Shown here one piece after another: positions 28,999-54,369 of a stretch of 63,237 nt of DNA. Position numbers and translations under genes: made by a program. The notes beneath the pieces are model-generated. The model saw only the letters and a list, made by a program, of their open reading frames with translations, was not told the DNA's origin and made no database searches. The stretch's first letter is position 1. Each line of letters opens with the position of its first letter. The DNA is from Anoxybacteroides tepidamans. GTDB lineage: Bacteria > Bacillota > Bacilli > Bacillales > Anoxybacillaceae. The stretch spans positions 1-63,237 of the forward strand of contig NZ_JACHEP010000018.1 of NCBI RefSeq assembly GCF_014201465.1, given 5' to 3'.

Positions 28999-29080
28999 TT
29001 TCGGCAGCCCAGCCGTCATAGCGTTTCCGCCTTAGACCTTTGGCTTTGCGTCACCGCCTTTCGACAGTTTTGCCTTTTTC
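28999..29080 (-). ncRNA. c-di-GMP-I (GEMM-I) riboswitch 1
   Basis: On the minus strand the leader carries the conserved GEMM elements in order: GGCAAAAC, a P1b hairpin around CGAAAG, GACGCAAAGCC, GGTCTAAGGC with a GAAA-containing P2 arm, ATGACGGCTGGGCTGCCGA. The Shine-Dalgarno AAAGGAG begins in the 3' edge of the aptamer, which points to control of translation. It precedes a diguanylate cyclase, giving a feedback loop on c-di-GMP synthesis. No intrinsic terminator lies between aptamer and gene. Confidence 0.9.
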
Positions 29081-29095
29081 GTAGAGTAAAAAACT

Positions 29096-44846: not shown

Positions 44847-44932
44847 CCTCCTTCGGCAACCCAGCCGTCATAGCATTTGCCTTAGACCTGTGGCTTTGCG
44901 TCCCCGACTTTCGTACAGGTTTGCCTTTATCT
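44847..44932 (-). ncRNA. c-di-GMP-I (GEMM-I) riboswitch 2
   Basis: On the minus strand it has the same conserved core as riboswitch 1: AAAGGCAAACCTG, a CGAAAG loop, GACGCAAAGCC, GGTCTAAGGC and ATGACGGCTGGGTTGCCGA. The gene's Shine-Dalgarno AAGGAGG overlaps the 3' edge of P1, so ligand binding would alter ribosome access. The upstream side joins decayed IS sequence within about 10 bp, so the native promoter may be lost. Confidence 0.9.
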
Positions 44933-44937
44933 GGATT

Positions 44938-52628: not shown

Positions 52629-52703
52629 TTAGCAACAGCCGTCCACATCGCAAACAAATCCTTCCATCGCTTCAACAGAGCGTTGTTTACTTAATTCATC
52701 ATA
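52629..52703 (-). pseudogene. Probable 3' remnant of the interrupted DsbA/FrnE-like gene
   Basis: Immediately outside the element's right end an open frame reads YDELSKQRSVEAMEGF then VCDVDGCC and stops at 52631-52629. A Cys-ending tail like this occurs in some DsbA/FrnE-type proteins. If it is the same gene, roughly 130-150 codons between it and the 5' remnant are gone. This is inference from position and frame. Confidence 0.45.
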
Positions 52704-54234
52704 ATCGGGCGAGGAGACCCCGACTTCTAAGCAAGAGCGAAAGTCGGGGAGGAATCACCCTTCCTCCTTTCGATTAATAATGTGCTCGCATGCTCCACTT
52801 TTTTTAGTTTCTTAACACTTGCCGAAGCATGGATTCTTGTGCCATCTAACAACCGAAGATCGAAATATCCGCTACTTCTTCTGCCGAACACAAAACATTC
52901 TTGGCGATGGTACATCACTTTGTCAAATAGCTGAAACCCTTTGACCAACCGTTCCGCCTTATTGGCTTTCCTTTTTCCGCCTTTTGATATGGTTGCTTTG
53001 TGTAGTTGACGGTTATTTTTGCGAACAAATTTCAACAGAAACACCGTGTCGCTCGGTGTGGCAAGAGGATTCCCACTGATACAACGAGCATCGACCATGT
53101 GCGTTTTTGCCAATCTATGCACAATACGAGTGTGTTTGGTGATATATCCATACGTGTGCTTCGCATGCGGATACACTTTCTTTAGTCCATTCCAGATGAA
53201 CCAACGCATCATGGACATGTGGGAAGCGTCTTTCAACGAAGGGAATCTCCGCTGTATTTCGTGTTCTAATCCCTCTCGATGAATCCTATCGTGGCAAGTT
53301 TTGCACAGTGTAAGGAGATTACTCGGAGAATCGCCACCCGTCTTTCTGCTTTCGATATGATGGACATTCAGTACAGGGTCTTTCAACTTTCCTTTGCACC
53401 ATTGGCATGTATGACCGTCTCGATACAATACATACTCCCTCACATTCCAAAAGCCCAATTGCTCTCCTTGTTGATATGCTGCACCTTGAATATCAGGATT
53501 CTTTATCTTTTGAGTATCAAATTGCGCCACTTCAACGGTGATATGGGTAATCGGAAGCAGCGAATGTACCCATTTGACTAATTTGATATGACTCTCCACT
53601 TTATGCTGAATCGAAGGGGCTAACCAACCGTTTGGCTTCTTACGATTCAAAAATCGGGCTTTTCGATATCTTGTTTTTCGATTTCTTCGGCTTCTGCGAA
53701 ATTGCCTCCTCGTTGCTAACAATTCTTGAATGTCCGTACGCAATTGTACTTCTGCTTCCAAAAGCACCTGATTTTTTGTGGTAGCGGATAGCCCCACATG
53801 TTTTGCTCCTGCGTCTACACCTAAAGAAATAGGTTGCTTGTATCCGCTACTACCGTATAGTAGTTGAATCGTGAACGGGGTTCTTTTTACTACTTTTGCT
53901 TTTTTGTTTGTTAACAATATCCTTGCTTTTCTTGGCGAGCACGGCATCAATGGTTTCCCATGCTTATTGATCACGTACACGAACAAGACGTGTACCTCCT
54001 TTCGCGGAGTGTTCTTCCTCTTCCCCCATGTTGGAAGGGCTTGTGATGTTGACAGCACCGTCCCTACCCATCAGGACTTTTAACCATCAACGACAGTGGC
54101 TACGAACTAGAGGAGCATTCGTAGGTGTCATGACCCAACCAACGTAGTCCTCGAAAGACTTGGGGTAGTCAACTAGGGCTTTTTACAAGCCCCCACTTCA
54201 AAAGCCCAAGGCTTTAAGTGGTGGGTAGTTGACT
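52704..54234 (-). mobile_element. IscB-carrying IS200/IS605-superfamily element (no TnpA)
   Basis: The boundaries are the DsbA-like codons at 54235 on the left (5') side and 52703 on the right. The right end has a TCGGG/CCCGA hairpin (52705-52723) overlapping an alternative CCCCGACTT/AAGTCGGGG stem around the iscB stop codon. The left end starts with AGTCAACTA and folds into subterminal hairpins. Only iscB is carried. No Y1 transposase is present, so movement would need TnpA in trans. Confidence 0.75.
52727..53986 (-). CDS. iscB: RNA-guided nickase/nuclease IscB (Cas9 ancestor)
   Basis: The protein has 419 residues with the full IscB architecture. The PLMP domain comes first (NKHGKPLMPCSPRKARILL). 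RuvC-I is LGVDAGAKHVGLS (Asp58). An arginine-rich bridge helix spans about 92-112. RuvC-II is THITVEVAQF (Glu152). The HNH domain has CQWC (194-197), LNVHHIESRKTGGDSPSN (His209-210) and CKTC (228-231). RuvC-III is KTHMVDARC (His296, Asp299). All catalytic residues are present, so it may be active. The start is TTG 53986, seven nt after AAAGGAGGT. The longer frame to 54058 lies in the omega RNA. The family is known to use an omega RNA encoded upstream. Confidence 0.93.
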   Translation of the reverse strand: MFVYVINKHGKPLMPCSPRKARILLTNKKAKVVKRTPFTIQLLYGSSGYKQPISLGVDAGAKHVGLSATTKNQVLLEAEVQLRTDIQELLATRRQFRRSRRNRKTRYRKARFLNRKKPNGWLAPSIQHKVESHIKLVKWVHSLLPITHITVEVAQFDTQKIKNPDIQGAAYQQGEQLGFWNVREYVLYRDGHTCQWCKGKLKDPVLNVHHIESRKTGGDSPSNLLTLCKTCHDRIHREGLEHEIQRRFPSLKDASHMSMMRWFIWNGLKKVYPHAKHTYGYITKHTRIVHRLAKTHMVDARCISGNPLATPSDTVFLLKFVRKNNRQLHKATISKGGKRKANKAERLVKGFQLFDKVMYHRQECFVFGRRSSGYFDLRLLDGTRIHASASVKKLKKVEHASTLLIERRKGDSSPTFALA

Positions 54235-54250
54235 TGGCTTAGGTCTTAGT
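53990..54250 (-). ncRNA. Omega RNA (HEARO) of IscB
   Basis: The stretch directly upstream of iscB is highly structured. In RNA sense, AGTCAACTA (54233-54225) pairs with TAGTTGACT about 60 nt later and encloses two hairpins, CCACTT...AAGTGG and GGGCTT...AAGCCC. Further stems follow up to the iscB ribosome site. This matches the HEARO/omega RNA position and shape. The roughly 16 nt just upstream of AGTCAACTA, which are host-gene sequence, would be the guide. Exact ends are not determined. Confidence 0.8.
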
Positions 54251-54369
54251 TCAAAAGGCATCCACTCAATGTTAACATCTTTATTTTGCACAGCATCTTC
54301 CAGTGGTTTTTTGGCTAGAAAACAATATGGACAAACATAGTCGGAATATACTTTTATACTCAATGTCAT
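54214..54369 (-). pseudogene. 5' remnant of a DsbA/FrnE-like oxidoreductase gene, cut by the IscB element
   Basis: From ATG 54369 (GTGGAGG upstream) the frame encodes MTLSIKVYSDYVCPYCFLAK followed by KPLEDAVQNKDVNIEWMPFE and LRPKP. That is the N-terminus of a FrnE-type DsbA protein with its CPYC redox site. After codon 45 the frame enters the IscB element and stops at 54216-54214. The full family is about 200-240 residues, so this copy is dead. Confidence 0.85.

Follow-up and report, generated by a model that had tools for sequence, protein, structure and literature searches.

The window analysed here, a stretch of 63,237 nucleotides from Anoxybacteroides tepidamans (contig NZ_JACHEP010000018.1), carries on its minus strand an IscB gene and an omega RNA inside a broken frnE gene, and the locus raises two questions: which DNA would the nuclease be guided to, and how did the element come to stand where it does? 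We found that the predicted guide is read from the frnE codons beside the left end of the element, and that the element joins one site of frnE (site A, on its left) to another site of the same gene (site B, on its right). The features are as follows:

54234..54369, minus strand: 5' remnant of frnE (DsbA-like), up to site A; matched by Pfam DSBA, and uninterrupted across site A in the congener genome G004
54234..54249, minus strand: predicted 16-nt guide CTAAGACCTAAGCCAA, in frnE codons 41-46, abutting the 5' end of the HEARO RNA
52700..54233, minus strand: IscB element, which starts GTCAACTACCC and finishes GCCCGATTATG; drawn from an end-to-end copy (G001:C2) and the ends of other copies, with the cut before ATGAA taken from the G004 site
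54011..54233, minus strand: omega RNA scaffold (HEARO, RF02033), 144.6 bits over the full model
52727..53986, minus strand: IscB nuclease, 419 aa from a TTG; the list of open reading frames gives 54058-52727 with a GTG start
52695..52699, minus strand: ATGAA of frnE site B, the putative target-adjacent motif (read as TTCAT on the other strand)
52629..52699, minus strand: 3' remnant of frnE, from the ATGAA of site B to the stop, placed by its joint with the site-B left flank of G004

The element, its ends and its motif

The preliminary description had seen a complete IscB with intact RuvC and HNH residues downstream of a HEARO-like RNA, and our searches bear this out. The open reading frame matches the NCBIfam model NF040563, 'RNA-guided endonuclease IscB', at 392.2 bits against a cut-off of 175, and the Pfam families RRXRR (E 8e-71) and HNH (E 1.6e-8). 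Its nearest PDB chains by sequence are IscB proteins, OgeuIscB included, and the model and the alignment to these chains place in it a PLMP domain and a RuvC with bridge helix into which HNH is inserted. The columns of the RuvC-I Asp, the RuvC-II Glu, the HNH HH pair and the RuvC-III H..D, which we take to be the catalytic residues, are all retained in that alignment. Translation likely starts at the TTG at 53986, 7 nt after AAGGAGGT, to give 419 aa, as judged from the sequence. The intact IscB gene lies directly downstream of the HEARO RNA (54233-54011, minus strand), which covers positions 1-211 of the 211 in covariance model RF02033 (cut-off 83 bits) and is the only HEARO in the window; guide and scaffold together fold at -86.4 kcal/mol (z -2.98; 1/200 shuffles at least as good). 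OgeuIscB and OrufIscB likewise combine a PLMP/RuvC/HNH protein with a ~200-nt scaffold bearing a 5' guide and a TAM beside the target (available portions of PMC9640706 and PMC13180657), whereas the window IscB, at 419 aa, is shorter than OrufIscB (492 aa; same portion of PMC13180657) and the OgeuIscB chain (496; PDB).

We set the ends of the element by comparison with other copies and with the uninterrupted G004 site. The copy on the Anoxybacteroides amylolyticum (formerly Anoxybacillus amylolyticus) plasmid NZ_CP015439.1 (G001:C2) is 95.6% identical to the window over all 1539 aligned bases and has the same ends and the same ATGAA, but it is sited at a DUF84 gene and a thioredoxin-family gene and its guide differs. 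For this single pair the dN/dS of IscB is 0.157, and the first 200 bp of the element differ at 1 position; judged by these comparisons, both IscB and the part that encodes the RNA appear to be under constraint. The sequence common to the two copies spans 54233 to 52695, ATGAA included. Because site A of G004 reads uninterrupted as CCTAAGCCAA|ATGAAACG, the last five common bases, ATGAA, are target and not element, and the element is therefore 54233-52700 (minus strand), 1534 bp. We had also considered GATTATGATGAA as element sequence throughout and rejected this, since G004 site A reads CCAA|ATGAA and ATGAA thus belongs to the target. Comparison with full copies and with G004 puts the left end at the G of GTCAACTA; the guide and left end had thus been sought in the right place, but one base away, at AGTCAACTA, and the element limit given as 52704 was 4 bases off, the right end being 52700. 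Within its own genome the element is the single close copy.

ATGAA stands next to the right end at 13/13 distinct junctions, the window counted. This figure rests on a comparison of 25 loci, 16 of which have a usable right end and represent 12 distinct sites, with the window as the 13th; in those 12 sites ATGAA is at the aligned end or at most 3 bp away, and at one locus (L030) two ATGAA near the right end leave the exact end ambiguous. Left out were loci at a contig end (L078, L090), loci with the left end or no end aligned (L081, L068, L066) and distant loci (L006, L107, L112, L095). Note that further tables, built with a pattern that requires ATGAA, are no evidence for the motif. The junctions show that the element inserts directly 5' of ATGAA. 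As a motif inferred from junctions, ATGAA agrees with the NNRR TAM of OgeuIscB (PMC9640706, in the portion available) and fits NWRRN, the looser TAM class given for OrufIscB (PMC13180657, likewise). By analogy with the ISDra2 rule (PMC8612924, in the available text), TTCAT would be the TnpA target.

Both the junctions and the flanks at empty sites display an IS200/IS605 trait, insertion beside a short fixed motif with no duplication of the target, and we class the element as an IS200/IS605-type IscB/omega-RNA (OMEGA) element that has no TnpA of its own. We detected no Y1 TnpA in the element or on its contig; the four Y1 matches of the genome lie on other contigs, and comparison of these four loci detected no common ends that would mark a cognate TnpA. 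It is known that IS200/IS605 derivatives lacking TnpA can be mobilised in trans. Nothing is new in kind about IscB, omega RNA, the guide rule or homing either, and the locus adds another member to a known class.

Related loci were seen elsewhere in this genome (G000) and in its relatives. Three more HEAROs occur in G000 (C25:21558-21767, C1:439186-439396 and C6:77656-77864; L007, L008 and L009); the IscB query matches the genome in two places only, both elsewhere, and none of the open reading frames of at least 120 aa in the 5-6 kb around these three is IscB-like by eye, so that they are possibly solo omega RNAs. A second, divergent IscB of the same genome (G000:C1:386880-388356; L012, L001; 39% identity) has its own HEARO at 158 bits. 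In the 2.8-Mb family genome G010:C1 the IscB query has 20 hits at E <= 0.001, and their identity, mostly 37-39%, indicates that it is the other IscB lineage which has expanded there. A 145-bp non-autonomous element in G004 (C113:79341-79490; L133, L136) has both ends of the IscB element and sits before ATGAA, and in G000, G001, G003 and G006 its flanks lie next to each other to within 3 bp. The window also holds two c-di-GMP-I riboswitches, at 29000-29084 (minus strand, 84.1 bits) and 44852-44935 (minus strand, 78.9 bits).

The predicted guide and its uninterrupted target

The position and the length (~16-17 nt) of IscB guides are given in PMC9640706, in the portion available, and on this basis the guide of the window element is predicted to be the 16 nt that abut the HEARO RNA. 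That the guide lies just outside the left end and is read from frnE, as proposed earlier, is supported by G004, where all 16 nt are found within frnE with 0 mismatches and are followed by ATGAA. We searched the seven genomes of the genus for the guide with up to 2 mismatches and found it in three: at its own locus (0 mismatches), at G004 site A (0) and at a place in G005 (2). The guide read backwards, used as a control, matched 0-3 times on each strand of a genome, so a match with 2 mismatches is expected by chance.

The expectation that relatives would carry an intact target held for G004, at the level of sequence, but not for the frnE orthologues of 77-80% identity, which have 7 (G030), 7 (G033) and 6 (G036) mismatches to the guide, and of which only G033 keeps ATGAA at the site. 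A FrnE-like match is present in 36 of the 41 family genomes, at ~31-37% identity for most among the matches listed. An uninterrupted target is thus present as sequence, but of the genomes searched a single near relative has it, and the predicted range is narrow.

One element joins two sites of frnE

The element lies inside a FrnE/DsbA-type gene, as the preliminary description had it: the N-terminal piece, translated from 54369-54214, is recognised by Pfam DSBA at E 2.3e-11, and the G004 gene is uninterrupted at site A. That the element marks one empty site, on the other hand, did not hold. The element borders codon 46 of frnE on its left (site A) and codon ~193 on its right (site B). The G004 frnE has, at ATTGAGA|GTCAACT and 441 bp further downstream than site A, the left end of an element of the same family; 29 bp of this element precede the end of the contig, and the last letters may be unreliable. 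Joining the site-B left flank of G004 to the right flank of the window, ATGAATTAAG, produces an open, in-frame FrnE of 215 aa whose joint is gap-free against the three orthologues G030, G033 and G036; the flanks in the window are therefore sites A and B, and the frnE segment between them is absent. Alignment to an empty site, as had been suggested, fixes the left end and the ATGAA motif by way of G004, but the two flanks do not adjoin as those of a single-site insertion would: measured on the G004 gene, they are 441 bp apart. Of three ATGAA in this orientation in the G004 frnE, the junctions in the window use the first and the last. Unrelated intergenic DNA was considered as the source of the right flank and rejected, the flank being the 3' end of frnE; this 3' end, the right half of site B, has no match in the G004 assembly at E 0.001. 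The element thus joins site A on its left to site B on its right.

As a control, we searched the 41 family genomes with the joined flanks of five other copies, and the figures that follow hold among the matches listed. For 4/5 copies the flanks adjoin in at least one relative, with a length difference of about -3 to +45 bp (within 3 bp in relatives for G029C15 and the 145-bp G004 element; +33 bp in G000 and G004 for G001C2; +20 to +44 bp in relatives for G027). The flanks of the G007 copy matched separately, with the exception of G016, where the match to the left flank runs on for 21 bases into the right flank. Since four of the five copies have adjoining flanks, a gap of 441 bp is unusual in this element family, in what is a small sample.

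We favour, with a probability of about 0.68, the reading that this is a TnpA-less IscB/omega element with a left-flank guide whose A-B joint arose by recombination of two elements of the same family. Elements of one family would have stood at A and at B, either within a single chromosome or in two strains that recombined, and a homologous exchange between the two elements would have removed the 441 bp and left one element; no other account is as simple. The left end at G004 site B, which resembles that of the 145-bp element in the same genome rather than the window's, also speaks for this reading, though at base 7 it agrees with the IscB copies. As ATGAA is supplied at both sites, the compound element retains a legitimate guide and motif. 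In the last 95 bp of the window element, TTAATCG and GATTATG are common to 2/2 short elements and to 0/3 genus IscB-type tails among those compared, and its other tail differences are not common to the short elements; the shared features may be a weak sign of a crossover, or may be ancestral. No divergence step against G001 that would signal a crossover inside the element was seen near its right end, the last two bins holding 5 and 2 differences (the last bin is only 39 bp) versus 0-8 elsewhere. Among the seven genus genomes we found none in which A and B both carry an element, nor one in which A is the only site occupied.

Alternatively, a TnpA acting in trans would have cut the guide-side end of the site-B element and joined it 3' of TTCAT at site A, which would expel the 441 bp and give a new guide in one step. 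A single insertion would suffice, and the event would draw on the strand joins of IS200/IS605 chemistry; the junctions coincide exactly with ATGAA motifs, two of the three that the gene has in this orientation, and in G004 site B is occupied and site A is free. We nevertheless regard such a one-ended event as unlikely, because the letters of the left end differ: G004 site B shares ...GCCTCTGG with the 145-bp element of G004:C113, versus ...GCCTTGGG in the window (at base 7 the G004 site-B end is GTCAACT, as in IscB copies, versus GTCAACC in the 145-bp element). Moreover, no published example was found, the phrase 'adjacent deletions' being absent from the entries listed by a literature search, and no cognate TnpA was recognised among the four Y1 genes of the genome, for which no common ends were detected. 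An insertion at site A, itself a proper insertion site, followed by an unrelated deletion that halted by chance at the right end of the element is very improbable, as the right junction is the ATGAA of site B to the base, the congener has an element end there, and a chance deletion must also preserve G|ATGAA.

Predicted function and meaning

The omega RNA would begin with the guide copied from the chromosome beside the left end, and IscB with this RNA should cut DNA that has the guide sequence followed by ATGAA. The predicted targets are the donor joint that the element itself would leave on excision and the frnE allele in relatives like G004, and repair from an element-bearing copy would keep or spread the element. 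The joint left by excision would consist of guide A and then the ATGAA of site B, a proper target, so that self-recognition would be kept. Two models for TnpB are alike in this respect, the 'homing' proposal in the 'peel, paste and copy' model for IS200/IS605 (PMC8612924) and the TnpB plasmid gene drive (PMC11870625): in the available portions of both, the guide is the flank of the insertion site, and element-free alleles are cut and then copied. These models were shown or proposed for TnpB; by analogy with that published work, we infer a role in retention or homing for the window element.

We think it rather improbable that the copy is decaying, with an intact sequence that is no longer expressed or moved and has no function, a reading that is compatible with any history of the insertion. 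While the lack of a Y1 TnpA on the contig, the single close copy in the genome and the 3/5 HEARO copies in the genome without an IscB match nearby would fit such decay, the IscB frame is open, with its low dN/dS (0.157) against the plasmid copy, and the first 200 bp differ from that copy at only 1 position.

A bolder claim, that the IscB element moved its guide-side end from B to A by a one-ended TnpA event, deleting the DNA between and changing its guide, strikes us as distinctly unlikely; if true, it would give OMEGA elements a route to new targets without leaving their locus. The locus shows that the two junctions of an OMEGA element can differ in site, and joining the flanks therefore cannot always rebuild the empty site. 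For a small IscB from a genus of thermophiles it provides a natural pair of guide and candidate ATGAA motif, to which a congener adds an uninterrupted target that matches perfectly, and the homing idea is thus testable on a native allele pair.
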